This document shows positions 15,758 to 45,683 of a DNA stretch of 64,000 nt, in pieces. The notes under the pieces were generated by a model, which was not told the origin of the DNA, ran no database searches, and saw only the letters and a list, made by a program, of their open reading frames with translations. The DNA is from an uncultured Litoreibacter sp. (GTDB lineage Bacteria > Pseudomonadota > Alphaproteobacteria > Rhodobacterales > Rhodobacteraceae), in NCBI GenBank assembly GCA_947493265.1, contig CANLQL010000004.1:558001-622000 (forward strand). Direction: 5' to 3'. A program made the translations under genes and the position numbers. Positions within the stretch are counted from its first letter, which is position 1; every line of letters begins with the position of its first letter.

Positions 15758-16156
15758 ATGGCGATGAAAAAGAAAAAAAGTGAATTGCTGACCGAGGTCG
15801 AACTGGAGTTTATGAACGAACTTTGGGCCTTGGGCGAGGGAACTGTACGTGACGTGCTGGACGAACTGCCAGACAGTCGCAACCTCGCCTATACCTCCGG
15901 CGCGACGATCCTGCGCATTCTGGAACAAAAAGCATTCGTCACCAGTCGGAAGGCAGGCAAAAGCCATGTCTACAAACCGACTTTGGCAAAAGATGCTTAT
16001 CAATCACGCTCGCTGAAAAACCTGTCGGTCAAATTGTTTGACGATACGCCCGCATCGCTTGTGGCCCGTCTCGTAAATGATGACGAATTGACAGAAGAAG
16101 CGTTGGGGCAAATCCGGGCAATTGTTGATCGGAGGTTGAAAAATGATAGCGGGTGA
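15758..16156 (+). CDS. BlaI/MecI/CopY family transcriptional repressor
   Basis: A 132-residue winged-helix repressor. The N-terminal DNA-binding half contains LTEVELEFMNELWALGEGTVRDVLDEL and YTSGATILRILEQKAFV, typical of PF03965. The C-terminal half (about 90-130) is the dimer part, LVARLVNDDELTEEALGQI. The start could also be the second ATG at 15764. It overlaps the M56 peptidase gene by 14 bp, the usual arrangement for a repressor that is cleaved or released on a membrane-peptidase signal. No beta-lactamase gene is close by, so the regulated target is unknown. Confidence 0.85.
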   Translation: MAMKKKKSELLTEVELEFMNELWALGEGTVRDVLDELPDSRNLAYTSGATILRILEQKAFVTSRKAGKSHVYKPTLAKDAYQSRSLKNLSVKLFDDTPASLVARLVNDDELTEEALGQIRAIVDRRLKNDSG

Positions 16157-17366: not shown

Positions 17367-17399
17367 TTAAGGCGTTCTATCTGAAGAGGATCGCCTTAA
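17367..17399. terminator. Inverted repeat between convergent genes
   Basis: TTAAGGCG (17367-17374) and CGCCTTAA (17392-17399) form a perfect 8-bp stem around a 17-nt loop. The right arm includes the stop codon of the BamA-like gene. It may serve as a terminator for both the M56 gene and the convergent gene. Confidence 0.4.
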
Positions 17400-18728
17400 A
17401 ACTCGCTGCGGAAGGTAAGACCAAAAGCTTGTTTTTGGTCGTAGGTTTCTCCGCTGGACGACAGGGCCAAATAGCTTTCAAACGTCCCAAGCTGTGTTGC
17501 GACAGACAGGCCAATACCCGCAGACGTCCGGAACGCGCGGTCATCTATTAAAACACCCGTGGGCGCTGCGTTTGTGTCCACGCCCCAACTTGCACCGACA
17601 TCGCCAAAGATGAACGTCTCAAGGGTCGGGATGCGCGTGAAGATAGGCAATAGTAAGTCTGTACGTGCGACCGCAAAATGATTGCCGCCAAGGTTTGTCA
17701 CTTCGTCGACGCCCCCTGCCCCGCAGCCAACACAGACGTCTCGCGGGCTAACGGACCCGCGCTCAAATCCGCGCAGCGCAGCACCTCCCAAAAAGAACCG
17801 ATCTGTCGCAATTGGATTATCGCCCGATAAACCCGTCACTGTTCCAAGTTCAACACGACTTCTGAGAGCCAATCCTGACCCACCGATCGGCAGTTTGCCA
17901 AAGAAACTGAGTTTGCTCGTCGACAAATCAGTATCGCCACCCAACCCTGTGAAATCCTGATCAAAACGCACGGACCAGCTAGACCCACCTAGGCCCGGAC
18001 GACCTGCGAGATCTGACCCTGTAATCAGGCTGATGCCGACACCGGAAGACACCCGGCTACCGGCTTCTGATTGCAAGATATTCGACGCCGAAGCATCGAC
18101 ATTGTCCAACTCGTCCCAGCTGAGCGTGTAGCGAAATTCGCCACCGATCTGATCACCCAAACGGAAGTTGTAGTAAGGGCTTAGTGACGCGGTTTTGAAA
18201 TCAAATGCGTCATTGTCATAGGCGTAGTTTTCGAAGTTGAACCGAATTCCACCGCTGCGTTCGCCCCCCCCAGAAACGCGGAGAGCGATAGGACAGACCA
18301 AGTGTCTGGGCTTCTTGGGCAACTGAAGCCGTACCGCGGTATTCGGTTCCTTCACCGTGCACATCCAGAAGCAAAAATCCGAGGACACCAAGAATGCCGC
18401 TGTCGCTGTCATAGCCCAAACCAAATGTCAGGCCACCCGTGTACTCGGGCTCTTCGCGGACGGTTATGGTCAGGACGTCCCCTTGGGAAGTGATCCTGAC
18501 ATCGCGAAATTCGCCGGTAAATTCCAATGCCGCAGCCGCCGCGCGTAAATCCTCTACACCCAGCAGATCCCCGGTCTGCAAGCCTGAGGTCGCTAAAATG
18601 TCCTGATCCCGGAACCGGTCATTGCCATCGACAACAATCGTATTGAAGACACGAGGCTCCGGTGCAGCGTGAACAGGCTGGATAGTTACGATTGCAGTCA
18701 GAATAGCTGCGACCAAGTTCGATTTCAT
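17396..18728 (-). pseudogene. BamA/TamA-like outer membrane protein, frameshifted at a G8 tract
   Basis: Two overlapping frames together encode an Omp85-type protein of about 443 residues. The first (from ATG 18728) has a Sec signal peptide ending VHA, one POTRA-like domain (about 24-100, RVFNTIVVDGNDRFRD onward) and the first barrel strands. The second frame (up to 17396) gives the rest of the barrel, including GGAALRGFE, which corresponds to the family's RGF motif, and a terminal Phe. The frames meet at eight G residues on the coding strand (C8 at 18264-18271). Seven Gs would give a continuous FWGGERSGGIRF reading. This may be a sequencing error, a real loss or slippage-based on/off switching. 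It is divergent from the TolC-like gene and may be part of the same export system. Confidence 0.75.
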
Positions 18729-18809
18729 ACTCTGCCCTCGCGTCGTGGATCGGATCATTTGATGCTTTTTGATGCATTTGCGTACCCGATCCACAGAAAT
18801 TTTCCCAGA

Positions 18810-18833
18810 CTAGGAAGAAAAAAACTTTCCTAG
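18810..18833. promoter_or_regulatory. Inverted repeat in the BamA-like / TolC-like intergenic region
   Basis: CTAGGAA (18810-18816) and TTCCTAG (18827-18833) form a perfect 7-bp dyad, and AGACT-like flanks extend the symmetry. It sits about 80 bp upstream of the BamA-like start and 150 bp upstream of the TolC-like start. It is a candidate operator or promoter element for both transcripts. Confidence 0.4.
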
Positions 18834-18980
18834 ACTGAAATTCCTTCCATGAAAGTTGGTTAATAGTTAAACACGTTCTAATTGTTCGGGGACGGGGAAT
18901 ACAGCGGTTAGATTACCAGTGTTTTTGTTCGAAGAAACAATAACAAGGCTTTGTGGGGGGCCGATATCGGGAGCGACTGG

Positions 18981-20942
18981 ATGAAAAGAATACTTTTAAG
19001 CTTAGCCGCATTCGGATTGGCAGCATGCGCGGAACCAGCAATCCAACCACGAGACGGAGATCTACCAAGGCCACGCGGTTTTTCCCCTAGCGTGGAGGAA
19101 GACCAAATCCGCGGTGAAAATGGTGAGATCCTAACCACAGAGCAAGCTCGTGCCCGGCTTGATCAGATGACCGTGAATGATGGTCAACGGACGCGCCGCC
19201 TTGATGACGAATTCAACGTCACTGCGCGCGACCGGAACGAAACCTGGCCAATCGACTCTCTTACCTACAAACGGTTTAACAACACGACGGAACGGGCAAT
19301 CTACCTGCGTCGTGCCTTGGGACGCTATGCACTGGCCGAGGCCAGACAGCGCGGGTTGGGCACGCAACTCAGCAAAGTACGATCGGCTGCGGCGCGGACA
19401 ACGTCATCGACCTCCGCCGAATGGTGGTCCCAAAACGTCCACAAGGGTGACTTGGCAGCAGGCCAAGCCGGTCGTCGGGTGTCTTTGCCAGAAACCATCA
19501 AATCCACAGTCAGAAATTCTAGCCAGATCGCCGCTTTCGGTGACCTGCCGGCCATTCGCGGCACAGCCATACAGGAAGCGCGTGGGCGCTTCGTGCCGGA
19601 ATTCTACGCGGAAGCCAGCCGCCAAAAAGAGAACGAAACAACCACCAGCCCTGCAATCGCTGCGGGGGCTGCGCGGGCGATTGATCGCACGGATGAAGTA
19701 GAGTTTGGCGTCCGGTCGCGCCTTCTGACGGGCGGTGAAATCTCCGTTTCGCAAAGGTTCACGACGACAAATACCAACCGGATATCCTATATCCCTGGCG
19801 AACAATCGCGATCCCAGACAACCATTTCGCTTGTCCAGCCGCTTTTGCGCGGATCAGGTGTTGGGGTTAACGACGCCCCACGCCGGATTGCCAATCTTGA
19901 TACTGGGATTGCGACTGAGGAATTCCGCCGCCAGTCAGAAGCACATCTTATGGAGGTAGAGCGGGCGTATTGGAACCTTTATGTCGCTCGCGCGGTCTAT
20001 GTCCAAAAAGCCCATCTGGCTGCACATGGCCGCAGATTGGCAGGACAAGTTTCGGGTCGGGTCGATATAGATGCCGATCCAGTTTTGGTTACGCGCGCAC
20101 GCTCACTTGCGGAGCAATGGACCGCCGACACCATTCGCGCGCAGGCCGCAATGGACAATGCAGAGTTCCGTTTGGCGGCCTTGGTAAACGATCCGCGTAT
20201 GGGTCCCAGTGGCGTTGAGCTGATCCCAAGTTCTGCCCCGAACGGTGCCCTCAAAGGTCTTCGAACAAACGATACGATTGAAGACATTTTCGTAAACCGA
20301 CCCGAATTGCAGCAAGCCATCTTGCAGTATGAGGCATCCCTGATCCGCGAAGGCATCGCTGCGAACCAGGCACTGCCTGAGCTTGATCTGGTTTTGGAAG
20401 CAACGTCAGAAGGTGGTGCGAACGGGTCCAGTTTTTCAGACGCATTGTCGAACCGCGGAGGTGGGTCAGGAAACCTGATCGGTCTCAAGTTTTCCGTTCC
20501 ACTGGGGTTTGATGAACGGGACGCACGCTACAAGCGCCGTCGTCTGGAGACCATCCAGCAAGAGCGTCAAGTACTGAACGTCGTTTCAACGATCCTACTG
20601 GAAGTCGATGTGTCGGCGAACGAATACATCGTCGCCTGCAATGATCTGATTGCCCAGCGCCAGTCACTGGCCGCTGCACAGTCTTCTTTGCGTACGGTCC
20701 GCAATCGCTGGAACGACGGTGTCGGTGGCGAAAACGGGATCGCTTTGTTGTCGGCATTGCTTGCAAGTTATCAGCAGGTTCAAGCCACCGAGCAGGCAGT
20801 TGCCACAGCCCGTGCAACTCGCGAAATCGCGGCAGCAAACCTGGCCCGCGCCCGGGGGGTTCTTCTGGATCGTTGGGGTTTGAAAACCGATATTCGCAAG
20901 GATATTCGCGACCAACCAACTTATAAACTGGTTAGCCGCTAG
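18981..20942 (+). CDS. TolC-family outer membrane lipoprotein
   Basis: About 653 residues. ATG 18981 begins a lipoprotein signal with lipobox LAAC (Cys16); an upstream ATG at 18951 would spoil it. An unusual charged pre-domain (about 20-190) precedes the efflux-protein core. The core has the two long helical repeats of TolC: first half about 195-400 (NRISYIPGEQSRSQTTISLVQPLLRG, then YWNLYVARAVY), second half about 420-640 (IRDNRW-type segment TVRNRWNDGVGG). The protein should form the outer-membrane channel. It is followed after 21 bp by the giant repeat protein, with a good GGGGAAGG ribosome site between, so the two are almost certainly one transcript. Confidence 0.88.
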   Translation: MKRILLSLAAFGLAACAEPAIQPRDGDLPRPRGFSPSVEEDQIRGENGEILTTEQARARLDQMTVNDGQRTRRLDDEFNVTARDRNETWPIDSLTYKRFNNTTERAIYLRRALGRYALAEARQRGLGTQLSKVRSAAARTTSSTSAEWWSQNVHKGDLAAGQAGRRVSLPETIKSTVRNSSQIAAFGDLPAIRGTAIQEARGRFVPEFYAEASRQKENETTTSPAIAAGAARAIDRTDEVEFGVRSRLLTGGEISVSQRFTTTNTNRISYIPGEQSRSQTTISLVQPLLRGSGVGVNDAPRRIANLDTGIATEEFRRQSEAHLMEVERAYWNLYVARAVYVQKAHLAAHGRRLAGQVSGRVDIDADPVLVTRARSLAEQWTADTIRAQAAMDNAEFRLAALVNDPRMGPSGVELIPSSAPNGALKGLRTNDTIEDIFVNRPELQQAILQYEASLIREGIAANQALPELDLVLEATSEGGANGSSFSDALSNRGGGSGNLIGLKFSVPLGFDERDARYKRRRLETIQQERQVLNVVSTILLEVDVSANEYIVACNDLIAQRQSLAAAQSSLRTVRNRWNDGVGGENGIALLSALLASYQQVQATEQAVATARATREIAAANLARARGVLLDRWGLKTDIRKDIRDQPTYKLVSR

Positions 20943-20963
20943 CCCTCGGGGAAGGAACATCTG

Positions 20964-23900
20964 ATGACCTTAGTCCCGAAGTTTGAGCAACTAGAAGACC
21001 GGATCGTTCTGGATGCGGAGCCTGTCGTCACCATTAACGCACCGGATTCCGTCGAAATTGGCGAACAGGACGTGTCGGTCACGCTGACCTTCTCAAACAC
21101 AGGCGATCAAAGCGGATATGTTCCCTACATCGACTTTGTGATCCCGTCGACGGGTGAAGATGGGGATGATGGCGTCACATTCGACAGCGCATCATTTCTG
21201 GGTGCTGCAATTGAGACCACCGAGATCGTGTTTGACGCAAGCGGTTTGGCAACCCATCCACTTGCAACCGACACAATGGGCGATCCGCTAATCATCTCTG
21301 CTGCAGACTTCGGCGCGCAGGCTGGCGATACTTTGGTTGTGTTTGAATTGCCATACGGCTCGTTCTCTCCGGGCAACCCGGCTGTTGATATCGATGTGGT
21401 CTTGGATTTCTCACCGCTTGCCGATCTGGATGAAGACTTCACACTGTCGGCTGTGTCCGGTTTTGCCTTTGGGCAAGATCCGATCGACAATCCCGGCACC
21501 GATGCCCCTATCCGCCAAACGACACCGTTTACGGACACGGTAAGTCAAACCCTGTTCGATGTTTTTAAAAGCAGCACGATCCCGGAAGACGAAGCCGCCA
21601 ACGGGCCTAGTTTCCCATATTCGTATACTTTTGGCGTTAATGTTGCTGACGGACAGACTCTGACAAATTTCTCGCTGACGGATACGTTGCCGCATAACAT
21701 TGTTTACGAAGGCGGTTTGACAATTTCAGGCGGTACAGGGGCCACAATCGTCAGCCAACCTGCAACCGGCGTGCCGATAACCGGTGCGAATGATATTTTG
21801 CAGATCGATTTCACCGAAGTCACAGACACGGTTACTGTCACATTCGATTTCTACGTGGCCGAGACGCTTTCCGACGATAGTAGTCCAGTTATCACGCCCG
21901 GCACAGGCGGTGCGGGATCAGTTTCCAACACTGTCGAGGGGGAAGGCGATTGGGTTCCTGTGGACCCCCGCGATGCAGCGACATCTGTCATGGACAGCGC
22001 CACGAATGTCGACGAAGTCGCAGCGATCAACATCCAAAAAGGCATCTCGCTGTTTACGGACAACAACCCGCAGGTTGGTATCACCGCGCCGGGCGATGAG
22101 TTTTTGTTCACGCTGAATGTTCAAGTCTCGGACTATTTCACACTTGGTGATATCGTCGTTGAGGATCTGATGGGCAATGGCTGGGAATTTGTCACCGGCT
22201 CGGCTCAATTCACCACCGTGGAAGAAGTCGGTGCAATCACAACGGCGCAGAATTTCGGATCTGATCTTGTCGTTGACCTGAGTGACTTCAATACTGGCGG
22301 AACAACCGGCCTGACTTTCAACCTGTCTGATGCAATGGTTTCTGCGGGCCAAGACGCGTTTTTGACCGGGGATGCCGCGCGTCCGGGCGCGATATCGGAA
22401 ACGCCAACGACTGTTCAGATCACTTACCGCGCGATTATCCGCGAGTCTTTGACAGATGCGGGTGGCCTTGGGCAGCTTAATGTCGGCCAGGGGGATGTTT
22501 TGACCAATATGGTCGACATTCGGGGCAATGTTTATGACAACACGACGGGCGTTGCGACCGGATCTCAGCTGACCGACACGTCTGAGGCGTCGCTCACCTT
22601 GGATCGCGGTGAAATCCGGGAAAAAACGGTTACGGCTGTAAATGGTCAGCCGTTTGATCCAGCGGTCCCTATTGCCGCGGGTGACGAGGTGACGTTCTCG
22701 ATCATTTATGACAGTCCTCTTGGGTCTTTTGATGACCTGTCGATCGTGGATAACCTGCCGCAAAACGTCTTTACAGCGTTGGAGTTAGACCCGACGGCGA
22801 TGGATCCCGAAAAGTTTTACGCGCCAGGTGATGGCCCTGCTATTCCGCCTCCGGGGTTTGCGACATTTGGACCAAACGATACGTTCTATAGTGAACTGCC
22901 AAACAACCCGATGACGGGTGTTCCGGATTTGCCGACGGTTTCAACGAACGGACCAAATAACCAGATCGATTTTGACCTGTCGAACTTGAACGTGGAGCCG
23001 CGCCAGGCTGTTGTCGTCGAAATTCTGCTGACTGTTACCGTCGAAGATGCGTTGTTTTCGGCTGACCTTCTACTGACCAACCAATCAACGGCCTTTGAAG
23101 CGAACGTCGCGCAAGGTCCCCCCACAGATACAACCGCAATTGCGCAATTTACCTATGCGGAACCGGTCTTGGAGATCACCAAAGGTGTTGTGGCGTTCGC
23201 GCCTTCACCGAACTCTGATGTGTCTTTGGTCGGTGCATCCCTGCCCGTGACCTTTAATGCACCCGGCACGGCAGGGGCCCGCTTCGATTTCAGTACTGGG
23301 CAGATCAACTCTTCAAACCTGGAAATAGACGCTGATATCACTGGTGTTGATGCAGGCGACATCCTGACATTCGCAATCGCTGTTGAGAATACAGGCCGCG
23401 CGCCCAACGGGGCGTTCGACGTGGTCATTCAGGATACAATTCCAACGCAGTTTGTTCCAGTAGGCGGAACAGGCAATGTCTTTGTCACGGACGGCAACGG
23501 CAACCCGATTACGTTTACCGGAGACCTCTTTACCGGCGGGATCACACTGACGGATCCGCCCCCTACCCCAGCGGGCTTGCTCCAAGGATCTATAGCGTCG
23601 TTTGACCAAACGGCGGGCGACAACATTGTCATCGTCACCTACGATGTTGAACTGGCCGACAGCGTCGTTCCGGACCAGCAACTGAATAACACGGCGGGTG
23701 TTACCAACTACGCAGCCTTGGAAGGCGGCGTGGACCGTGTTCCGATGGATGACCTAACCGATGGCGCAAGTGCGACGGTGGACGGCGTCGAAATCGACAA
23801 GTCCCTGACCTCAAGACAGTTTACTGACGACGGCTCCATCCCCTCGGGACGGACTGGTAACGAAGTTGTGGTCGGCGAGATGGTTGAATTTACGATCCGT

Positions 23901-26900: not shown

Positions 26901-29900
26901 GCCCTAGACAACGACAACACGATTGATGGCATCAATGCCAACGACGAGATTGTTTTGTTTGTCACAGCTTTGGTCACCGATGATCCAGCAAACATCGCCG
27001 GAGCTGAACGGACTAACACAGCCACATTGGACGTTGACCCCGAAGGCCCAACCGGACCCTTTAACCAGCAATCCGCTGAAGCCGACGTGCGGATTGTCGA
27101 GCCTGAGCTCGAAATCGACAAAACCGGCCCTGTTGCACTGAGCCCTGGCCAATCCGGCACTTATACCATCACGGTCGAAAACTCTGGCCCTGCGGTTACA
27201 CCAAGTGCGACCGGGCCTGCTTATGACGTGATTATTTCCGACGTACTTGATCCTGAACTAACGCTCGACGGACCGCCGACAGTGACCGTGAACGGTGCAT
27301 TGTCCACTCCGGATACGCTGACCAGCGGCCCCGGAGGATTTACGCTCAGCTTCGTTGTTTTGGTTCCGGACGCTGTGATCGAGGTGACATATAATGCCAC
27401 ACTGGACGCTGGTGCGAGCGCGCTGGACACGTTTTCAAATACCGCAACGGCAAACTATGACAACGTTCCTGGAACACCTGCAAATCCCGCAGGGGAACGA
27501 ACTTACGCGCCCGTATCCGATGACCACGTCGTCACAACATTGCCGGAGCTGACCAAGACACCAATTTCGTCCAACAACACAGATACCGGCAGCGCACAAA
27601 ACGCGGCCGGAGTCTTCGATCTGACCATTGGCGAAGAAGTCACTTACGAGTTGGTTCTAACCTTGCCGGATATTTCGATGGACCTTGTCGAATTGGTCGA
27701 CACTTTGCCATCCGGGCTGGATTTCGTCTCGGCCCGTGTGGTGTCTACATCTGATGACGTCACGATCAACGGCACAACTGTAATTACTGAGGCCGCTACC
27801 GGTGCCACGTTCCAGTTGAGCGATGTGGTCAATGACACAAGCGGAACAGACCTGAACCAAGTTACATTGGAAGTGGTCGCTCGCGTCCGCGCCGATGCTG
27901 CAAATGTCGACACGTTGCAATTGACGAACTCTGCGGGTCTCACGATCACACCTGACGGTGAAGCGCCTTTGACAACGGTCGTTGATACCGCAGTTGTTGA
28001 GATCGTTGAGCCAGAACTGACTTTGACCAAAACGGGCTCAGTTGCCGCTAATCCGGGCGATCCTGTCGACTACACGTTGACGATTGTGAATGACGGCACA
28101 GGGCCCGCGTATGATGTGATTGTCGAAGATACCCTGAGCAATGCGTTCCTGTCGCTTGTCTCTGGCACTGTGATGATCAATCTGGGCGGCGATATCACGG
28201 CATCCGTTGATGTTACCGAAACCGCAACCGGGTTCACGTTTGAACTGGACGACAATACCACCGGTGAGCCGATCCCGATCCTGCCGGGCGAAACGCTGAC
28301 GGTTACCTATCAGGCATTGTTGGATGCAGCCGCACCCGAAGCGCAGTCATTTGTTAACACCGCAACAGCGAATTACGACGGCCTTCCTGGCGATCCGGTT
28401 GACGGCGACGGAAACCCGATTGCTGATCGCGATTATTCCACCACTGATGATTTCTCCGTCGCGACCGTGCCGTTCATCGTGAAGACGCCAACATCGACCA
28501 ATTTTGGCGAAACATCAGACGCGCCGTTTGAATTGGCGATCGGGGAAACGATCACCTACACATATGAGCTTTATCTCCCCGAAATCGAGCTTTCGCAGAT
28601 CAGTTTCTTCGACGACCTGCCAGACGGTATGGAATATGTCGGCCACACAGTTGTCAGCAATGGCGATATGACGGCAATCGGCGGTGGCGCTTTCCCGACA
28701 CCGACGCTTACGCTGGTCGGAAACGATCTGACATTGCTGTTTGAAGACGTCGATAACCCGGAAGATACGTCCCCTCCGACAATCGGAACCGATGACATTC
28801 TGACGATTACTGTCGACGCGATTGTTACCTCCGATGCGGCTGCAGGCGATACGTTGACCAACGAAGCCGTGTTGCAGGTTGTGCCTGCGGGTGGCGGGAC
28901 GCTGAACCAGTCCTCCGCGACGGCCTCTGTCGGCGTGGTAGAACCGGAACTCAACGTTGATAAATCTGGGCCTCTTGGGGCAAACTTAGGCGACACTGTT
29001 CCCTTTGAAATTGTGATCGAAAACGTCCATCCAAGCGGCTCGACAGGTCCGGCCTATGACGTTGTGATCTCAGACCCAATGCCGCCGGAATTCTCGCTAA
29101 ATACCGGATCATTAACCTACACAAGCGATCAACGCGGGGCTTTGGTACCATCATCTGTTACCGCAACGGCAACCGGCTTCGATGTCACCTTCAGCGAGTT
29201 GCTTGCTGATGAAGTTTTGACGATCAACTACACTGCGGACCTTTCCGCAACTGCAACACCGTCCGCAAGCTTCACAAATGAGGTGACGGTGAACTATGAC
29301 AGCGCACCGGGTGCCAACCCCGAGCAGGAAACCTACGCCCCGGTCACGGATGACCACCGCATCGCGACGATCCCTCAGCTAACCAAAACAATTACCGGGA
29401 CCGACATTGCGCAAACCGGGTCGGGTGAACATGTCCCTGGCAATGAAGACGTCACCGTGGGTGAGTTGATCACCTACGAATTGGTTGTGACCCTGCCAGA
29501 ATTCGACGATCAGACTGTTACGCTTGTGGACACGCTGCCCCCAGGTCTTGAGTTCATTAGCAGTGAGGTCACCGGCGTCGGCGCGGAGATCACCGGCGTT
29601 ACTTTGGGTGATACGGGCCTTGCGACCGCAGCAGCGCAGATCGTGACTTTCAACTTTGGCACTCTGAACAACGCGTTTGCTGACGGTGCTGCAGATGAAG
29701 GTGTTATCAACGGCGAAGATCAGATTACGATTGAAGTAGTGGCGCGGGTTGCAGATGTCGCCGCAGCGACAGACGGTGCGACACTGACCAACGATGCGAG
29801 ACTGAATGTCACCCTTTCAGATGGCTTTGTCTTTGCTGAACAACAGGCCGAAGATAGCGTTGACGTTGTTGAACCGCAGATTGATATCGACAAAACAGTG

Positions 29901-30947
29901 AGCGATCCGGAGCCGATGGTCGGCGACACGATCACTTACACCGTCGTGCTCTCCAATGATGCCGCCGCAACCGGTCCGGCGTTCAATCTAATAATCTCCG
30001 ACATGTTGCCAGATGATCTGTCATTGATAGGCGCACCGGTGTTGTCGGATCCTTTGCTTGGGTCCAGCGGCAATGGCGCAGGTGATCGCGCATTGCTGGT
30101 TTCCGTGCCGGTTTTGCAGCCCGGTGAGACATTGACCGTGACCTATGACGTCTTTGTAGGCTACGCGAGCCCGGTTTTGATGGATGTGACGAACACCGCC
30201 ACTGTAACCGGCAGCACGACGCCAAACAGCAATTTGCCAGATGGCGGCGGGCGTCCATTTACAGACAACGACACGGCGGTGATCGAAATTGATCCTGCCC
30301 CCGAACCTGTCACGGACCGGGAAGAACGCCTGCCGGGCGGCGGGATCGATGACGCGCAATTCCTGCCGGTGCTGTTGATTGATCCGATCTTCTCCGGCAC
30401 TGCTGAGCCGGGTTCAAACGTCACTGTGACGCTTTACCGCCAAGATGGCTCGCTGAGTTATGTGCGGAATATTCTTGCTGATACTGGCGGGCATTGGATT
30501 GCGATTTTCCCAAGCGTTCAGCTTGAGACTGTGCAAGACGAAACCAATGACTTCTTCACGCGGTCCGTCTTATTCGATGCGCCATACGACCCGATTGACG
30601 ATATTGAACGAGACACACTTGGAACACCGATTGTCCAACGCGCAGTCACAACAGGCTCTATTCTGAACGACGAAGGGTATTCCTTGTCCTTGCAACAAGA
30701 TCGACCATCAACGTTGCCACAGGAATCGGGACAACATAATGCCCGGACCTATTTCAATCCGGCGACAGTTGGCGAAGGATATGGAACTGGCGTTGTGCTG
30801 AAAGTAGATGAAGTCTTTGAAAACGTTGCTGGATTGACTGTTGAGCGTCTCTATGGTGCGTCAACGGATCCGCTTGGTGCGGGTTTGAACCGCTTCAACT
30901 ACGAGTTCTTGTCTGAGGCGACCGCGATGCCTGGCGGCGCGCGCTAG
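20964..30947 (+). CDS. Giant DUF11-repeat surface protein with LEPR-XLL-like N-terminus
   Basis: A 3327-residue protein, strongly acidic, rich in Asp, Thr, Val and Gly, with almost no Lys in long stretches and, in my reading, no Cys. There is no Sec signal; the N-terminus reads FEQLEDRIVLDAEP, like the LEPR-XLL motif of large secreted adhesins. From about residue 730 to 3100, DUF11-type domains (V-EPEL-x-I-DKTGP start, GPAYDVVISD core) alternate with a related domain type (KTPxSSN start, GEEVTYELVLTLP core, VDTLPSGLDFVS). Eight such pairs were counted, each about 300-330 residues. The N-terminal 700 residues hold more diverged copies. The C-terminal 250 residues contain an Ig-like segment (GTAEPGSNVTVTLYRQDG) and a separate end domain with ARTYFNPA. 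It is probably a surface fibre or adhesin exported by the neighbouring genes. The stop codon overlaps that of the convergent GAF-adaptor gene. Confidence 0.9.
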   Translation: MTLVPKFEQLEDRIVLDAEPVVTINAPDSVEIGEQDVSVTLTFSNTGDQSGYVPYIDFVIPSTGEDGDDGVTFDSASFLGAAIETTEIVFDASGLATHPLATDTMGDPLIISAADFGAQAGDTLVVFELPYGSFSPGNPAVDIDVVLDFSPLADLDEDFTLSAVSGFAFGQDPIDNPGTDAPIRQTTPFTDTVSQTLFDVFKSSTIPEDEAANGPSFPYSYTFGVNVADGQTLTNFSLTDTLPHNIVYEGGLTISGGTGATIVSQPATGVPITGANDILQIDFTEVTDTVTVTFDFYVAETLSDDSSPVITPGTGGAGSVSNTVEGEGDWVPVDPRDAATSVMDSATNVDEVAAINIQKGISLFTDNNPQVGITAPGDEFLFTLNVQVSDYFTLGDIVVEDLMGNGWEFVTGSAQFTTVEEVGAITTAQNFGSDLVVDLSDFNTGGTTGLTFNLSDAMVSAGQDAFLTGDAARPGAISETPTTVQITYRAIIRESLTDAGGLGQLNVGQGDVLTNMVDIRGNVYDNTTGVATGSQLTDTSEASLTLDRGEIREKTVTAVNGQPFDPAVPIAAGDEVTFSIIYDSPLGSFDDLSIVDNLPQNVFTALELDPTAMDPEKFYAPGDGPAIPPPGFATFGPNDTFYSELPNNPMTGVPDLPTVSTNGPNNQIDFDLSNLNVEPRQAVVVEILLTVTVEDALFSADLLLTNQSTAFEANVAQGPPTDTTAIAQFTYAEPVLEITKGVVAFAPSPNSDVSLVGASLPVTFNAPGTAGARFDFSTGQINSSNLEIDADITGVDAGDILTFAIAVENTGRAPNGAFDVVIQDTIPTQFVPVGGTGNVFVTDGNGNPITFTGDLFTGGITLTDPPPTPAGLLQGSIASFDQTAGDNIVIVTYDVELADSVVPDQQLNNTAGVTNYAALEGGVDRVPMDDLTDGASATVDGVEIDKSLTSRQFTDDGSIPSGRTGNEVVVGEMVEFTIRVDIPEGSYFDAEIRDRVTAGALVLESAVISSSPVGAQVGATASLVGGQIVFDLGNFINPSDNDLLNDFIEVTVQGRVDDLAGFEANGFMRNVASFSYAETDGGSTNRLQDGQNLRLTEPNLTIDKEANTDVVDAGGTVSYTIDIANLAGFRDAPAFDLTLSDGLPTPEMGLVGGSVQLFINGGLVAFNGTDYDLTVTGNTFEVFIDRLDPGQTAELRYDATVLQTIAAGTEIDNTANLVFDSTPEDDSGADGDDREYTISDVETVLARAPSIDKVVDTSSTSYADTTGTDLGIGELVTYEITVGIPEGETDMVVLTDTLPAGLEYVESTVVRVGDSNGRITGSLLSASDMGSNSGQVTTFTFGDLSNAFDGTVDTDDEIVVRITARLTADSGVDTTDTLTNSSALSYQDGQGAAQSIADTADIEVVEPSMALTKDVTPTTADAGETVSYTLTATNSGDGPAYDMIIADDVVGAAAAADQLSVVVTLRDDLGGVYTPAEAPTFSFNGAGELEVIIPSLPAGYGAEITYDAVVQDAALFSTAYVNTAEITRYDTNPEGDATTPPADPDEEERVYDAALGGGYVVPEATATFTTPDVTLEKEYLSSSDTNTAAPGTGNAALVVGETVTYLMTITIPEGQADLVLTDVLPTGLEALSASVISLDGASSTTLVAGADESDSDITLAAGSVSFDFGTVSLPGTADSAATDAEITVSVTARVTDTTPDVADGVSLTNTATLEVDNPAGGPALQDDVVATEVVDIVEPELVIDKTGPTGGDPNEAVPYQITITNTGTGPAYDAVISDPIADAFLSLVGGSISVTHSAGTIVPAADITENAFAGDGFTIENLTLLPGETVTVDFSVLIDAGAPDANSFANTATVNYDTVDDGDPASPTGRTGTDSDDHSIATVPRITKTPFSSNFIDTNSDSPTDMPFDLSVGEEVTYRYVITLPEIGMESVVVVDTLPTGFDYVSFSVGSTGNISGANLLTPTVDNSGASNVVEFDFGALDNDNTIDGINANDEIVLFVTALVTDDPANIAGAERTNTATLDVDPEGPTGPFNQQSAEADVRIVEPELEIDKTGPVALSPGQSGTYTITVENSGPAVTPSATGPAYDVIISDVLDPELTLDGPPTVTVNGALSTPDTLTSGPGGFTLSFVVLVPDAVIEVTYNATLDAGASALDTFSNTATANYDNVPGTPANPAGERTYAPVSDDHVVTTLPELTKTPISSNNTDTGSAQNAAGVFDLTIGEEVTYELVLTLPDISMDLVELVDTLPSGLDFVSARVVSTSDDVTINGTTVITEAATGATFQLSDVVNDTSGTDLNQVTLEVVARVRADAANVDTLQLTNSAGLTITPDGEAPLTTVVDTAVVEIVEPELTLTKTGSVAANPGDPVDYTLTIVNDGTGPAYDVIVEDTLSNAFLSLVSGTVMINLGGDITASVDVTETATGFTFELDDNTTGEPIPILPGETLTVTYQALLDAAAPEAQSFVNTATANYDGLPGDPVDGDGNPIADRDYSTTDDFSVATVPFIVKTPTSTNFGETSDAPFELAIGETITYTYELYLPEIELSQISFFDDLPDGMEYVGHTVVSNGDMTAIGGGAFPTPTLTLVGNDLTLLFEDVDNPEDTSPPTIGTDDILTITVDAIVTSDAAAGDTLTNEAVLQVVPAGGGTLNQSSATASVGVVEPELNVDKSGPLGANLGDTVPFEIVIENVHPSGSTGPAYDVVISDPMPPEFSLNTGSLTYTSDQRGALVPSSVTATATGFDVTFSELLADEVLTINYTADLSATATPSASFTNEVTVNYDSAPGANPEQETYAPVTDDHRIATIPQLTKTITGTDIAQTGSGEHVPGNEDVTVGELITYELVVTLPEFDDQTVTLVDTLPPGLEFISSEVTGVGAEITGVTLGDTGLATAAAQIVTFNFGTLNNAFADGAADEGVINGEDQITIEVVARVADVAAATDGATLTNDARLNVTLSDGFVFAEQQAEDSVDVVEPQIDIDKTVSDPEPMVGDTITYTVVLSNDAAATGPAFNLIISDMLPDDLSLIGAPVLSDPLLGSSGNGAGDRALLVSVPVLQPGETLTVTYDVFVGYASPVLMDVTNTATVTGSTTPNSNLPDGGGRPFTDNDTAVIEIDPAPEPVTDREERLPGGGIDDAQFLPVLLIDPIFSGTAEPGSNVTVTLYRQDGSLSYVRNILADTGGHWIAIFPSVQLETVQDETNDFFTRSVLFDAPYDPIDDIERDTLGTPIVQRAVTTGSILNDEGYSLSLQQDRPSTLPQESGQHNARTYFNPATVGEGYGTGVVLKVDEVFENVAGLTVERLYGASTDPLGAGLNRFNYEFLSEATAMPGGAR
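23158..30300 (+). repeat. Eight-fold ~0.9-1.1 kb coding repeat inside the giant gene
   Basis: Starts of the DUF11-type half-units lie near 23160, 24250, 25173, 26171, 27097, 28005, 28936 and 29866. Spacing is about 1.09, 0.92, 1.00, 0.93, 0.91, 0.93 and 0.93 kb. The copies are clear at protein level but well diverged at DNA level, so the array is old rather than a recent tandem expansion. Confidence 0.75.
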
Positions 30948-32614
30948 AACCAGAAGTTCAACAGGAAATAGTCGCGAAGCTCCCGGTAGACGATCTGCCC
31001 TAGCGGCCTTGTTTCCCGCTGCACTGACAAAACGCCATTCAATCCGGGACGCACTGCGTCAGGTTCGTTCAAGAACTCGGCCCGACCCAGGTACATTTTC
31101 TGCGTGTCTTCACCCAGCCCCGCCGGAGAGACGAGGGTGATCTTGCTTTCCAATCGGATCGTCGGGTCGAAATCTGGTCGAAAAATGCCCTCTGAGCCAT
31201 CCCCAAGCTTCCCGATTTGGGATTCTGGTATGGAAAGTTTCAAGCGCATCGCAGAGGGATCAGCAATCGTCAGAAGCTCTTCCCCCTGTCGCACCGTTGT
31301 GCCTTCGCTTTGTCCGAGATCGGGGGCGATAACCGTTCCTGAAATCGGTGCGACAACAACCGTGCTGGCGAGCCGCGCATCCAACAACGCCACCCGCGCA
31401 TCAAGGCGTTGAACTTCAAGCTCAGCGTTTCTGAGTGCAGCCGCGTTGCGGGACGCGCGCGACGCTTCGCGTTCAAGCATTGCCTTGGCGCGCTCCGCAC
31501 GGATACCGATCAGCTCGATTTCAATATCGTTGTTATCCAACTCAAAAAGCGATGTTTCTCCAGCGACAACGCGGTCCCCGTCGCGCACGTTGATTGTGGA
31601 AAGCGTCGCAGTCGTTGGAGCAGTGATTACGCGGCTTTCTTGGGCCTCCACGATCGCGGGAAGTTCCACCCCGTCTGGTAATGGGATCAATGCAAGACCA
31701 ACCAAAACCAAGGCAGCAGACCCGATCCGGACCAGACGCCCAGTTGTAAACCATTGGCGCTTTCGCTTGCGTTGGCTCAACGAATAAACAGCAGAAAGAA
31801 GCGGCAACGCAGTTCTGTTGCGGCTGGGGCCCTCAAGATGGATAACCAACCCTTCGCTTTGATGCGGCGCGGCCGCATAGCTGCGATCCTGACCGATCAA
31901 TCGTTGGCTCGCGGTTGTCGCCATCTCCTTCTTTATCTTTTCAGGAAGGCTTGCACGCTTTGCGGCACCGTCCTGGCCAGAGATTTTCAAACCACCAATA
32001 TTACCATCCCGGCTGAAAGCAGCTGCCGCATAGCTTGCACCCGTGTGCTTTGCCAGCAGATCAACAAAGCGACTGACATCGCTGATCTCGCCTCTGGCAA
32101 TCGCCTGGATGTCGGTGATCAACCCGTCACGCTCAGTCCGATCAGAAGGAAGGTTGCGGGAAAATGATAGTGCGCCAAGAAATGTCGCCCGCTCATGCGC
32201 CAGAGCACTTTGCACAGTATTTGACGCGGATACGCCCAACGCCAAAATTGCTGGCCTGCCGGTTGGCATCGCGACCCGAACCAAGAGCGTCGAGGATACG
32301 GTCGTCACTTGGGCTTGCTCAAACTCGCCAGCATTCAAGCCGTCGGTTATCGCAGCGGTAAAATTTTCTGGCAGGTTTTCCGGTGGGTTGCCCGCAATAA
32401 CACGGGTCTCGCTTTCGTCGTCTTGCACGCTAAGACTAACCCAATGCGCGTTCGTGAGCGCCCGCGCGAAGCCAACAAATTTCTCTGCAAACCTCGTCGG
32501 GTGGTCTGTCGAAAACACGTCCTCCAGGGCGTCTGCCAAGGTTGGCTTTCTTGGCCCATCCGTTGACGCGGATTTGTCTTTGAGGTCTTTGCTATCTGGG
32601 GACAGGTCCGTCAT
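30944..32614 (-). CDS. GAF-like/HlyD fusion membrane protein (secretion adaptor)
   Basis: About 556 residues. The frame is open to 32833, but ATG 32614, which follows the upstream adaptor stop closely, is the likely start. Residues 1-300 are soluble and contain two segments of GAF-like character (about 30-165 and 180-290). One transmembrane helix (about 310-330) is followed by a HlyD-type adaptor: lipoyl half (VITAPTTATLSTINVRDGDRVVAGE), short coiled coil (about 390-430), second lipoyl half (VVVAPISGTVIAPDLGQSEGTTV) and barrel part. The C-terminus is rich in aromatic residues (YFLLNFWF). It is the last gene of the M50-SapC-HlyD-adaptor operon and converges with the giant gene with overlapping TAG stops. 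It may couple a cytoplasmic signal or the substrate to the export channel (inference). Confidence 0.8.
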   Translation of the reverse strand: MTDLSPDSKDLKDKSASTDGPRKPTLADALEDVFSTDHPTRFAEKFVGFARALTNAHWVSLSVQDDESETRVIAGNPPENLPENFTAAITDGLNAGEFEQAQVTTVSSTLLVRVAMPTGRPAILALGVSASNTVQSALAHERATFLGALSFSRNLPSDRTERDGLITDIQAIARGEISDVSRFVDLLAKHTGASYAAAAFSRDGNIGGLKISGQDGAAKRASLPEKIKKEMATTASQRLIGQDRSYAAAPHQSEGLVIHLEGPSRNRTALPLLSAVYSLSQRKRKRQWFTTGRLVRIGSAALVLVGLALIPLPDGVELPAIVEAQESRVITAPTTATLSTINVRDGDRVVAGETSLFELDNNDIEIELIGIRAERAKAMLEREASRASRNAAALRNAELEVQRLDARVALLDARLASTVVVAPISGTVIAPDLGQSEGTTVRQGEELLTIADPSAMRLKLSIPESQIGKLGDGSEGIFRPDFDPTIRLESKITLVSPAGLGEDTQKMYLGRAEFLNEPDAVRPGLNGVLSVQRETRPLGQIVYRELRDYFLLNFWF

Positions 32615-32621
32615 GAAATGC

Positions 32622-33428
32622 TCATGGCCGGGAGATGACGACACTGGTGCCGGCCAGAACTGATCTGTCAGAATTATCCAACTCAAAAACCACGCGCACA
32701 GTGCGGCTGGCTGGGTCGATCCTTTTGTCAGCCAGGATAAATTCCAACGAAACTTCCGTAGCCCCTGCATCATCGAGCAAGGCGGATACTGCTCGGTCAA
32801 CGGTAAATCCATTAACCCATGCGACAGGTACAAAAGCAGTCGCTTTCAGCCTGTCCAGGTTGCCAATTTCCATGATCACAGCTTGCGTATCAATCGTCTC
32901 ACCTGTTTCCGCAGCTTTCTGCAATACCGTTGCTGAAAAAGGTGCACGGATCGAAAATTCATCCAAGGTCGCTTGTTCAAGGTCCAGCTGTGCCACAGCC
33001 TGGTCTCGCGCCTCTTTTGCCAAGATTAGATCGGCTTGCGCCAACTCAACGGCCTGTTCCGTTTGCGTAACCTCCCAGGCCTGGGCAGCACCCTTGCTGC
33101 GGGCTGTTTGCACCCTGTCACGTAGCGCTTCCGCTTGGGCCAGGACGGTCTGCGCCCGCAAAATTGCGCCATCGCTTTCCGCCGAGATTTTTGCGAAATC
33201 TACGCGGGCTCTTTGGACGTTCGAATCCATGACAACCAGAACATCGCCTTTCGAAACGGTTGCGCCTTCCACCACCGGAAGCGCTTCTATTCGGCCGTTT
33301 ACAGCGGTGCGGATTTCAACCTTCTGAACCGGCTCAAGGATCGCAGTAACACTGTCCGAGAACACAGTTTGCGCCAATGACACGAAAGGAAGAAGGGCCA
33401 CCAGAAGGCTTATGAGAACGACTTTCAA
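32622..33428 (-). CDS. HlyD/MFP family periplasmic adaptor
   Basis: Periplasmic adaptor of 268 residues. The signal peptide ends SLAQ. A lipoyl half (RTAVNGRIEALPVVEGATVSKGDVLVVMDS) is followed by a coiled-coil hairpin (about 70-140), the second lipoyl half (FSIRAPFSATVLQKAAETGETI) and a beta-barrel domain. The start is a TTG at 33428 within a TTGA overlap with the SapC-family stop, which indicates coupling. It is short and lacks an N-terminal membrane anchor beyond the signal peptide. It likely contacts the TolC-like lipoprotein. Confidence 0.85.
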   Translation of the reverse strand: MKVVLISLLVALLPFVSLAQTVFSDSVTAILEPVQKVEIRTAVNGRIEALPVVEGATVSKGDVLVVMDSNVQRARVDFAKISAESDGAILRAQTVLAQAEALRDRVQTARSKGAAQAWEVTQTEQAVELAQADLILAKEARDQAVAQLDLEQATLDEFSIRAPFSATVLQKAAETGETIDTQAVIMEIGNLDRLKATAFVPVAWVNGFTVDRAVSALLDDAGATEVSLEFILADKRIDPASRTVRVVFELDNSDRSVLAGTSVVISRP

Positions 33429-34183
33429 ACAGTGTCTCCCATGGTGGAGAAATTTGAAAGCGATGTGAAATGGCCGCTCAGGATATTGCCAAGACCCCGT
33501 CGCATGAAACTTGCCAGGACGTCATCGGGCAGCTCGCGCATCTTTTCTTCCGAGATCGTCTGAAATCCATCGACCTTCAGGGTTTTTCCGCCACGTGTGA
33601 TCGTGACAGTGGACGGTCCTATCAGTTCATGGGACGCAAATTCCTCCATCGCTGCGCGCGTTCTGGCTTGGGCTGTTTCATATCTCTTGCAAAAGTCGAG
33701 TGCGGCGGTAACGACCTTGCCTGTTCCGTCTTTCGTAAACAGTGCCCGCTCCGGATCGCCGTTGGTCTCAAACATCGTGGAGCTTAGATCGGCACATAAA
33801 ATGTTTCGTGTCGCCTCTTCACTTTCGCGAACGAAGGCGAATGGAAAACGTCTCAGGTAAGCTGGTACATAAGCGCCATCACGCCACGCACCATCGGCAT
33901 CCACATAGTCGTTTTTCCCTTTCTGGAACCCGACCAATGCCAACGGGGTCGGCATTTGACCGCCGGACAAAACGATCGGGTAGTGGCGCAATGCAAGGGG
34001 AAATTCTTCTACCGTTAACGGTATTGCGTTAGCCGTGCTGGCGAAATCGAATGACTTCTGCGCCGCCAAGCTTAGGCCGCTATGGCGTTCGGGCAGAAGC
34101 GGCACCAAAGTCTTGTAGAGCAGCGGCAGATTCTGCGGCTCCATCGCCTTGTCTTCTTTAGATATCGCGCGTCTCTTGACCAT
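33425..34183 (-). CDS. SapC family protein
   Basis: Cytoplasmic-looking protein of up to 252 residues matching the SapC family (PF07277). The family opening is NLPLLYKTLVPLLPERHSGL, and the body contains EFPLALRHYPIVLSG and AYLRRFPFAF. The start may be ATG 34183 or, closer to the usual family length, ATG 34144. SapC proteins are found near surface-layer and giant-protein loci, but their biochemical role is not known to me. It lies between the M50 gene (18 bp upstream) and the HlyD gene (4-nt overlap), so it is part of the operon. Confidence 0.85.
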   Translation of the reverse strand: MVKRRAISKEDKAMEPQNLPLLYKTLVPLLPERHSGLSLAAQKSFDFASTANAIPLTVEEFPLALRHYPIVLSGGQMPTPLALVGFQKGKNDYVDADGAWRDGAYVPAYLRRFPFAFVRESEEATRNILCADLSSTMFETNGDPERALFTKDGTGKVVTAALDFCKRYETAQARTRAAMEEFASHELIGPSTVTITRGGKTLKVDGFQTISEEKMRELPDDVLASFMRRGLGNILSGHFTSLSNFSTMGDTV

Positions 34184-34201
34184 TTCTGCTCTTTCTTGGT
34201 T

Positions 34202-36193
34202 TTAGCTTAGATTGATTGGTAGCCGATCCTGCAACAGACGAGAAACGGAGATACGAAGCCGGGTTACGATTGATTTAGGCGGCGTTGCAAGTCGGGCAAC
34301 CAAAGCACTACCAGACCGCAGCCCCGCGGCACAATCCGGCAGGGCAATCGGATCAGCACGGAGCTTGATAAGACCCTGAAAAGCCGTGATGTCTGACCGG
34401 ACATCGCGCAAAGTAGCGGCAAACTCGCAATCGGGATCATGTCGCAACCGAACTTGAAGCGTGGCCCCTGTATCTAGGTCGATTTGCTGCTCCAGAAGGG
34501 CTTGATCCAGAAAGACGGTGATCAATGGTTCGATTGGGGAGGATACCGCACCGATAGGTGCCGTCCCACTGGCAACCCAGGATCCGACAAAATTTTCGCC
34601 ATCCATCGGTGTCCATTTTGAGCCCGTTCCGACCACGATGTTCAGCTTGTTTTTCCGGGCTTGCAATTGGGTTGTGATGTCTGAAATTCGGTCGATATCC
34701 TGCGACAATGTCGCCAGTTCAATCGCCGAGATCGAGATCGCTCTGGATGTGTTGGTGAGGATTTCAGCCCGGGCTTTGGTATCAAAAATCTGTTGCTCCA
34801 GATCGGGGCTTTCGAAAACCAGACCGTTCTGTCCTTTTGTAAGCCTGCTTGCTTCTGTCGGCTCTATGAACCGGGTTTCGAAGGTTTCAAATCTACCCGG
34901 CATCAGCAGGCGGTCCGGCAGTGGCATTGTAACTAGCCAAGCAAGCGCGCCGAAACACATAACCGCGAAGCCTGCGCGCCAGATCGACAGCTTGCGTTGC
35001 TGTGCAAACCGAAATGTCGACCATGCGGGACGCACGACCAGCATCATCAGGCTGATCACAGCAACCACCGGGGACAACCGTGGGTCGAGCTGATAGGTCA
35101 GCCAGAAAATCCCAATAAAAATTGTCCAACGATACAGGTAGGAAATGACCCAATATCCCAAGTCAAACCCGTTAACCGTTCCTGCCGCGCCTAGCCAGCG
35201 CACGACCAGATTCCGCGCCGATTGACTTGCCCGGGTTGCAAGGTTCGGTCGACGAATAAGATCGGTGAGCACGTAGTAGCCATCAAGCTTTACCGCCGGG
35301 TTTAAATTGAACAGCATTGTCAAAAGTCCGGCGACAACAGCGACTTGCAAAATAATCGTCTGCACGGGTCCGGTTTGCGTTTGTGACCAGAAGATCGTCA
35401 GAATTGCGATGGCCCACGTTTCAAAATAAAGCCCGCCTGCGCCGATCATTGCGCGTTGCCATTTCGATCTGAGCCGCCACGCACCGGTCACATCGGTAAA
35501 CGGGAACGGGGTCATCGCGAAAACTGCGATCCCCATTCGTATTGGCCCCGGCTCCAACCCGGCGCGCAGGCAAAAAATTCGATAAGCCAACGCATGACCC
35601 AGTTCGTGGATCATCTTTAAGACGACATAGAGGCCAGCAAAAACAAGAAAACCTTTCCACCCCATATCCGGGATGCTGCGCAGGCTAAGCGATACTTTCT
35701 CAGCATTGGCCAGCAGTTGGAAAATCGCTGTAACTGCGGCGAGCGCCCAACAAAAATATCCGACCGGCGAGAACAACGCACGACCAAGCCAACTGAATGC
35801 TGCGGCAACTGGCCCAGCATCGATCAGATCAGCCCTGAGTGAGACCAACTTGCTTTCAAGGGGCGCTTTTGGTTTAGGCGCTTTAGCTGTCGTCCCGGGC
35901 TCAATCAAAAATCCCGCTTGCAGCAAAGGCCCAATCAGTCCGCTTTTGAACGAGTCCTGAATTTGCGCATCGTGGAAAGCCTGTCCAACAGATCCGGTGC
36001 GCCGTAACGCATCGAGAAATTGAACCGTTGGTCTGTTTGCCTTGTAGATTTTCCCGGTCGCTTCGTTTGACAAAACGAACTCGGGCTCAGCCGCACCGGG
36101 TGGGGTTACGTCATGCACTTTCACAAATGGAGGAACTTCGAGCCGCCGCTGCGCAAAGTCGTTCTGCACCTGTTCTTTTTTGACGGTCTCCAT
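34202..36193 (-). CDS. M50 site-2-protease-like protein with PqqD-like N-terminus and adaptor-like C-terminus
   Basis: A 663-residue polytopic membrane protein. Residues about 30-100 resemble the PqqD fold, a small peptide-binding winged helix (FVLSNEATGKIYKANRP, then a SFKSGLIGPLLQAGFL end). Membrane helices span about 140-420. The M50 zinc motif is HELGH at 196-200, with the matching Asp in NLNPAVKLDGYY (Asp304). After the last helix (about 408-428) a periplasmic region (about 435-660) has barrel/lipoyl-like strands and a helical segment (about 470-520), as in HlyD-type adaptors. It is the first gene of the four-gene operon. With no ABC or RND pump present, it is the best candidate for the inner-membrane core of the exporter, acting as protease, channel or both. 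Confidence 0.85.
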   Translation of the reverse strand: METVKKEQVQNDFAQRRLEVPPFVKVHDVTPPGAAEPEFVLSNEATGKIYKANRPTVQFLDALRRTGSVGQAFHDAQIQDSFKSGLIGPLLQAGFLIEPGTTAKAPKPKAPLESKLVSLRADLIDAGPVAAAFSWLGRALFSPVGYFCWALAAVTAIFQLLANAEKVSLSLRSIPDMGWKGFLVFAGLYVVLKMIHELGHALAYRIFCLRAGLEPGPIRMGIAVFAMTPFPFTDVTGAWRLRSKWQRAMIGAGGLYFETWAIAILTIFWSQTQTGPVQTIILQVAVVAGLLTMLFNLNPAVKLDGYYVLTDLIRRPNLATRASQSARNLVVRWLGAAGTVNGFDLGYWVISYLYRWTIFIGIFWLTYQLDPRLSPVVAVISLMMLVVRPAWSTFRFAQQRKLSIWRAGFAVMCFGALAWLVTMPLPDRLLMPGRFETFETRFIEPTEASRLTKGQNGLVFESPDLEQQIFDTKARAEILTNTSRAISISAIELATLSQDIDRISDITTQLQARKNKLNIVVGTGSKWTPMDGENFVGSWVASGTAPIGAVSSPIEPLITVFLDQALLEQQIDLDTGATLQVRLRHDPDCEFAATLRDVRSDITAFQGLIKLRADPIALPDCAAGLRSGSALVARLATPPKSIVTRLRISVSRLLQDRLPINLS

Positions 36194-45679: not shown

Positions 45680-45683
45680 GCGC

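Follow-up and report, generated by a model that had tools for sequence, protein, structure and literature searches.

A SecA-less locus with an M50 protease-adaptor fusion and a giant LEPR-XLL protein in an uncultured Litoreibacter: a candidate branch of a leader-dependent export system

The described systems closest to the gene set treated here are type I secretion, accessory Sec, the leader processing of ribosomally synthesized and post-translationally modified peptides (RiPPs), and two-partner secretion (TPS). Type I secretion signals are C-terminal, and accessory Sec with SecA2 and SecY2 serves serine-rich giants of Gram-positive bacteria; how proteins of several thousand to 18,000 residues are placed at the surface is largely an open question. 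We analysed a stretch of 64,000 nucleotides from an uncultured Litoreibacter sp. (hereafter the window), in which the gene of a giant LEPR-XLL repeat protein (P0003) lies behind that of a TolC-family lipoprotein (P0002) and faces an operon encoding a GAF-like/HlyD protein (P0004), an HlyD adaptor (P0005), a SapC-family protein (P0006) and an M50 (site-2-protease-type) membrane protein fused to a membrane fusion domain (P0007). An earlier reading of the bare letters of the window (the sequence-only reading) had proposed that the M50 protein replaces an ATP-binding cassette (ABC) exporter, or at least processes the substrate, and that the set forms a separate export class for LEPR-XLL giants.

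The set resembles type I secretion (HlyB/HlyD/TolC, LapBCE) in that membrane fusion proteins and a TolC-family factor stand beside a giant repeat protein. However, it lacks an ABC exporter, carries an M50 protease in its inner-membrane unit, bears its conserved motif at the N-terminus of the giant, and is accompanied by a SecA-like ATPase in many relatives. A second SecA beside one large surface protein is shared with accessory Sec (SecA2, SecA2/SecY2), and two of the scanned SecA-like proteins match SecA2 models at 317-540 bits, below the SecA2 cut-offs; in contrast to accessory Sec, the SecA-like protein stops after about residue 610, has no SecY2 and is joined to M50 and adaptor genes, and it is absent from the clade of the window. 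RiPP leader processing by a PqqD/RRE domain and an M50 protease (daptide, YydH/LiaK) provides the best curated M50 matches (108-200 bits, three members), and a PqqD-like domain precedes the M50 domain in some members here as well, but the M50 proteins stay below the equivalog cut-offs of 300 and 225, are fused to an adaptor, and have a giant protein rather than a small peptide as presumed substrate. As in two-partner secretion, an Omp85 gene adjoins that of the giant, both in the window and in two syntenic relatives, but this Omp85 has one POTRA domain only, and the Pfam scan of the giant showed no TPS domain. The export set fails membership of both type I secretion and accessory Sec, though it would work like parts of both. 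No account of it was found in the literature searched, which is weak evidence, as preprints and most subscription journals lay outside the scope and the search terms were perhaps too narrow; the set looks like an undescribed machine for exporting enormous surface proteins.

We read the locus as one branch, lacking SecA, of a widespread export system for LEPR-XLL giants that depends on a leader and in which a SecA-type motor would drive the chain and the M50 site would remove the leader, and we put the probability of this reading at roughly 0.58. If it is true, a recurrent set with a short leader, a candidate leader peptidase, adaptors and often a dedicated SecA would supply concrete genes for the question of surface placement, and a natural SecA without wing/scaffold domain would help to tell which of its parts translocation requires.

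Co-occurrence and conservation of the gene set

Giant and M50-adaptor were linked by a LEPR-XLL search that was run independently of the M50 genes. Relatives of P0007 were found in 27 of the 198 genomes drawn from the family of the window, and 18 of the 20 genomes with a LEPR-XLL hit were among them (Fisher p 5e-17). The association recurs in a draw of Gammaproteobacteria (13 of 14 LEPR-positive genomes, with the M50-adaptor in 25 of 184 overall; p 2e-12) and in one of Planctomycetota (7 of 8, against 30 of 118 overall; p 3e-4). The centres of the draws (G000, G238, G210) had been picked as carriers of the system; without them the co-occurrence is 17/19, 12/13 and 7/8. Genomes of the latter two draws were scored as M50-positive only on matches of at least 139 bits that touch the M50 region, which excludes G363 and G382 (119 and 106 bits) as well as M50-only matches of 53-57 bits in Planctomycetota. 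Raw tallies with A2, the alignment of P0007 and 51 of 78 listed sequences, were discarded (177/184 and 116/118), because its adaptor half matches membrane fusion proteins generally. The LEPR-XLL test is also more trustworthy than a count of long open reading frames (ORFs), since ORFs of at least 1000 aa include antisense ORFs and other large genes. Of the co-occurrence which the sequence-only reading had asked to be checked, the pairing of LEPR-XLL giant and M50-adaptor is present in all three draws.

In the family draw the link extends to the neighbourhood: among 23 LEPR-XLL hits, 16 giant ORFs end 1.35-3.24 kb from an M50 match, three end 10-30 kb off, and four lie on contigs without an M50 match. 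The 18 gammaproteobacterial hits comprise seven within 5 kb of M50, three further off on the same contig and eight on other contigs. One LEPR-XLL open frame of the family counts 17,824 codons (G071:C4:103221, locus L159) and adjoins a SecA/M50 cluster; frames of more than 12,000 codons are also present in G001, G065 (two), G070, G238, G408 and G450.

A scan of one genome per species gave at least 579 relatives of P0007. The record titles of the best 80 name Alpha-, Beta- and Gammaproteobacteria, Planctomycetota, Verrucomicrobiota, Myxococcota, Chlorobiaceae and Fibrobacter, many of them metagenome-assembled genomes (MAGs). Together with further neighbourhoods, these best 80 of at least 579 loci make up 110 distinct loci, from which L031 (contig of L032, no M50), L063 (contig of L032) and L100 (contig of L036) had been dropped. 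Within 10 kb of the M50 gene, a GAF-HlyD-type or other long adaptor is present in 102 loci, a further HlyD in 77, a SecA-like gene in 65, an ORF of at least 1500 aa in 54 and SapC in 17, whereby early contig ends hide giants and SecA genes at several loci. The complete block of the window (M50-adaptor, SapC, HlyD, GAF-like/HlyD, convergent giant, TolC-like lipoprotein, divergent Omp85) is syntenic in Litoreibacter (L065, L183) and Sulfitobacter (L066, L184). Because this order recurs in both genera and the core in 110 loci, the layout is more than chance. At the syntenic loci the relatives of P0002 are 70% (Litoreibacter) and 67% (Sulfitobacter) identical, and those of the giant have 4000 aa with 46% and 3961 aa with 44% identity, respectively. 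A quick tree of the M50 domain, with SH-aLRT support only, groups the window with L032, L064, L065 and L066 (support 100), and none of these has a local SecA. Both the M50 gene and the giant of G049 (L062, L177) fall into several frames, as if this copy of the system were decaying.

P0007 carries the motifs HELGH and NPAVKLDGYY in membrane helices; its Pfam M50 score of 17.6 is under the cut-off of 27.2, and its closest curated family, daptide_HExxH (NF041824), matches at 108.5 bits, under the equivalog cut-off of 300. Its AlphaFold2 (AF2) model (mean pLDDT 88.9) comprises a small alpha/beta N-terminal domain, the motif-bearing helices and an adaptor-like part, and resembles MexA/MacA-type adaptors over about 250 columns. 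In the relative at L043, Pfam detects HlyD in the C-terminal half and PqqD (PF05402) over its cut-off (27.1 bits, cut-off 23.4). All 110 M50 sequences longer than 500 aa, two duplicate pairs included, keep HExxH and the second motif intact; presence of the second motif is no evidence for loci of the wide scan, because the search pattern lay around it, and HExxH lies outside the pattern. P0004 is an HlyD protein with a long N-terminal part (Pfam HlyD at residues 317-526 of the piece scanned), whose AF2 model (mean pLDDT 88.6) matches MacA/MexA. Pfam detects GAF in 27 of 41 members of alignment A4 (the window protein plus 40 of 65 listed), but not in P0004 itself.

Truncated SecA-like ATPases and the leaders of the giants

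An ORF of 650-700 aa beside M50 in many relatives is SecA according to the Pfam scan. All 31 of these SecA-like proteins that were scanned (alignment A3, 31 of 42 listed from named loci) possess SecA_DEAD, P-loop_SecA and the preprotein-binding domain, and none possesses SecA_SW; in the best solved SecA chains, their profile finds its match between about residue 11 and about residue 610 of 765-844. The truncation is judged from these two sources, the alignment to solved chains and the domain scan. The 31 sequences retain GEGKT-type and DEAD motifs, and a quick tree unites them in one clade, separate from six housekeeping SecA sequences that all come from the family of the window (the housekeeping SecA of L164 is cut at the edge of its piece, and an ORF of L167 that is not SecA was excluded).

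A short second SecA is present in 16 of 27 M50-positive genomes of the family draw versus 0 of 171 M50-negative ones (Fisher p 9e-17), and it is in exactly these 16 that the M50 locus includes a SecA-like gene. Counting all genomes that have at least two SecA matches (18/27 vs 17/171) was dropped as inflated by helicase noise: among the 17 M50-negative genomes with an extra match, 16 show noise only and G146 (83% complete) a housekeeping-like copy plus a 36-bit fragment, and a recheck of four M50-positive genomes did not uphold a second copy in G091 and G180. No second full SecY was found in the 27 M50-positive genomes, with one fragment in G180 and no SecY in G084. SecA-like genes can also lie away from the locus, as in some planctomycetes without a local SecA, which have short SecA genes elsewhere in the genome, and in G230 (L123) and G001. 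Genomes of the window's clade hold one SecA each (G198, G200, G201) or none (G199, a MAG). The proposal that M50 takes the place of the ABC exporter is not supported, given this SecA-like ATPase, found in 65 of 110 loci and, within the family draw, confined to M50-positive genomes. Processing of the substrate, the weaker version of that proposal, fits better than a pump role, given the intact motifs and the PqqD-type domains of some members.

The LEPR-XLL domain (NF012209) covers residues 6-27 of P0003, over its cut-off of 17, and the leader LEDRIVLDA occupies residues 10-18; the corresponding leaders of the clade read LEDRIVLAG in Litoreibacter and LEDRIVLDG in Sulfitobacter. The first 45 residues have no hydrophobic segment (best 19-residue mean 0.82), so that no Sec signal is visible, in agreement with the sequence-only reading. 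The repeats match the RrgB isopeptide-fimbrial model at 376.5 bits and a DUF11-type repeat at 228.2 bits; neither GGxGxD motifs nor, in the Pfam scan, a TPS domain were found in P0003. SecA-less giants of one M50 clade (L056/L173, L058/L175, L060, L061/L174; 4,054-4,570 aa) have 9-15 GGxGxD motifs each. Many SecA-less giants escape the LEPR model although their leaders (LEPRIMLDG, LEPRIVFDA etc.) are clear.

Leader and size of the giant both differ with the presence of SecA. Directly after LExRxxx, 13 of 15 SecA-less loci have D; none of the 25 SecA-linked loci does, their residue being S, A or N. This count excludes the leaders L099, L145, L158 and L163, which belong to a planctomycete locus without local SecA or lack their own M50 locus. 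In SecA-less loci the complete giants measure 1,851-4,570 aa (n=12, from several groups) and SecA-linked giants 6,441-17,824 codons (n=15, from one family), without overlap; the giants of G009, G084 and G138, which do not end near M50, are excluded. The size rule is not universal, because L083, outside the window's family, has a SecA-linked giant of only 2,912 aa. Judged from sequence, both correlates fit a leader that would be read by the machinery.

Proposed mechanism and alternatives

In the system that we envisage, the LExR-x-LL leader would dock at the inner membrane on the PqqD-like N-terminal domain of the M50-adaptor, and a SecA-type motor would push the unfolded chain across this membrane. 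In many lineages the motor would be the dedicated truncated SecA; in the window's clade this part would fall to the one housekeeping SecA. Removal of the leader would be the task of the M50 site, while the adaptor domains of the M50 protein, HlyD and the GAF-like/HlyD protein may form a periplasmic tube to the TolC-like lipoprotein, through whose conduit the chain would reach the surface. The PqqD-M50-adaptor order, the conserved leader and the dedicated SecA suggest that the leader is docked and later removed, that SecA drives the passage and that the conduit is tripartite.

Several observations weigh against this reading. We infer export itself, docking and cleavage of the leader, SecA as motor, and the roles of SapC and Omp85. 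For the window's clade the motor is a putative one, as a SecA-like gene is missing from the locus and the genome of the window holds a single SecA. Pfam did not detect PqqD in the N-terminus of P0007, and a PqqD-type N-terminal domain (E of 0.01 or better) is present in only 16 of 52 scanned members of A2. Site-2 proteases cut within membranes, whereas the leader of the giant is not hydrophobic. An outer membrane factor (OEP) lies within 10 kb of M50 in only 37 of the 110 loci. Four of the 42 LEPR-positive genomes (G030, G131, G425, G329) have no detected M50-adaptor, and in Planctomycetota no M50 match was found within 5 kb of any of the 12 LEPR-XLL hits, three of which have one on the same contig at more than 900 kb; as none is adjacent and the planctomycete LEPR-XLL ORFs are short (812-2,223 codons only), this test does not demonstrate the neighbourhood link for the phylum. 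The correlates of giant size and leader residue track clades, not independent events, and the leader rule is imperfect: L183, in the window's clade, has A, the decaying L177 has N, and L158, which was not counted, has an S-type leader in G091, a genome without short SecA. Finally, an ABC exporter gene and one for HlyD (L031:11838-14848) are situated 14.6 kb from the M50 gene of G063, a member of the window's clade.

This last pair leads to the question whether the giant crosses both membranes by a type I ABC exporter encoded elsewhere, so that the M50/GAF/SapC set would only mature, sense or retain it at the surface. Site-2 proteases often regulate surface processes, which would suit such a role. 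The RTX-type GGxGxD motifs of the four SecA-less LEPR-XLL giants point in the same direction, as does a Vibrio LEPR-XLL giant of about 8000 aa, which is reported to have RTX domains (PMC10868602). On the other hand, the giant of the window has no GGxGxD motif, and ABC ATPases occur within 10 kb of M50 in just 12 of 110 loci, the four longest of them without an exporter membrane domain, so that an ABC gene is not a regular member of the loci, as the refuting condition of the sequence-only reading would have demanded; several adaptor domains and a dedicated SecA are, moreover, hard to square with mere maturation. We consider this explanation doubtful. A pump of the resistance-nodulation-division (RND) type is likewise no member of the set: the only one within 10 kb of M50 in 110 loci is that of the window, outside the set, and no relative of it was found in the other 109 loci. 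This also speaks against an ordinary small-molecule efflux unit that lies beside the giant gene by chance, for which the similarity of the adaptors to RND/MacA-type membrane fusion proteins could be cited; since the LEPR-XLL/M50 co-occurrence holds in three separate genome draws, we hold such a coincidence to be very improbable. The claim that no ABC or RND pump is encoded here holds for the interval 17396..36193, but not for the whole window, which has an ABC importer at 11491-15282 and an RND pump with its adaptor at 44552-48815, starting 8.4 kb beyond the M50 gene. With no conserved ABC or RND pump and the co-occurrence of LEPR-XLL and M50, the proposal of a separate export class for LEPR-XLL giants is supported.

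Alternatively, the M50 membrane domain itself might be the inner-membrane channel or pump and need no SecA or ABC ATPase, the dedicated SecA having been added in some lineages. Much of the remaining set is indeed kept by three deep M50 clades that lack SecA, among them that of the window, and no true second SecA is seen in those 11 of 27 M50-positive family genomes whose locus has no SecA-like gene. We know, however, of no site-2-protease-type domain that pumps protein; a pure channel would not need the protease motifs, which all 110 M50 sequences have kept, and a SecA-like ATPase accompanies M50 in 65 of 110 loci. This makes a pumping M50 domain unlikely in our view. A bolder form of the SecA-driven system starts from the missing part of the motor: the wing/scaffold region of SecA contains the two-helix finger that engages SecY. 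The truncated SecA might accordingly drive giants of up to about 17,800 residues directly into the M50-adaptor without engaging SecY, as a SecY-independent translocase in which the site-2-protease fold would be both gate and leader peptidase, continuous with the TolC conduit; the clade of the window would then have a version of it that is motorless or housekeeping-driven. We put this forward very tentatively, as a rather doubtful extension of the leader-dependent system.

Gene parts of the window locus and its neighbours

All seven genes of the locus were found where the sequence-only reading had placed them (17396..36193; Table 1), with the giant directly behind the TolC-family gene, which stops 21 bp upstream of it, and the facing operon converging on it so closely that the last bases of P0003 and P0004 are 30947 and 30944. 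Near the start of P0002, MKRILLSLAAFGLAAC was read by eye as a lipobox-like sequence.

Table 1. Genes of the locus in the window, with the matches or motifs by which they were assigned
Feature	Position	Strand	Basis
Omp85/BamA-like outer membrane protein, one POTRA	17396..18794	-	Pfam POTRA 23.8 bits + Omp85 78.9 bits
Omp85 pieces in the window	P0008 18216-18794 (POTRA); P0001 17396-18424 (barrel)	-	two reading frames
TolC-family outer membrane factor P0002, lipoprotein-like start	18951..20942	+	Pfam OEP 78.8 bits
Giant LEPR-XLL repeat protein P0003, 3327 aa	20964..30947	+	NF012209 22.4 bits, RrgB isopeptide + DUF11-type repeats
GAF-like/HlyD fusion P0004, 556 aa from Met at 32614	30944..32614	-	HlyD_3, HlyD_D23
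HlyD / RND-type membrane fusion protein P0005, 268 aa	32622..33428	-	TIGR01730 109.9 bits, cut-off 94.9
SapC-family protein P0006	33425..34183	-	PF07277 179.9 bits
M50 (site-2-protease-type) membrane protein + membrane fusion domain P0007	34202..36193	-	HELGH, NPAVKLDGYY

The divergent BamA-like barrel gene of the sequence-only reading is present as an Omp85 gene, but it is split over two frames in the window, with a frame change between P0008 and P0001 at a run of G near 18262-18268. At the same place Litoreibacter and Sulfitobacter have a single open frame of 462 and 493 aa, and in the window the gene may be broken, the tract may be phase-variable, or the split may stem from an error in sequencing. 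BamA has five POTRA domains; the window protein has one and does not reach the BamA cut-off (TIGR03303, 297) with 92.3 and 50.3 bits, its two pieces being scored apart as the window holds no intact copy. Among 32 neighbourhood pieces, only L053 and L055 have an Omp85 relative. The Omp85 gene is flanked by a gene for a BlaR1-type M56 membrane protease (16143-17285), and a gene for an imelysin-like (M75) protein adjoins the M50-adaptor gene on the other strand (36594-37862).

In two loci of Granulosicoccaceae (L082, L087), ORFs of 1058-1088 aa beside the HlyD gene had been considered as RND pumps; the Pfam scan identified them as GGDEF/EAL proteins. Their position behind the HlyD gene is a hint of cyclic-di-GMP control.

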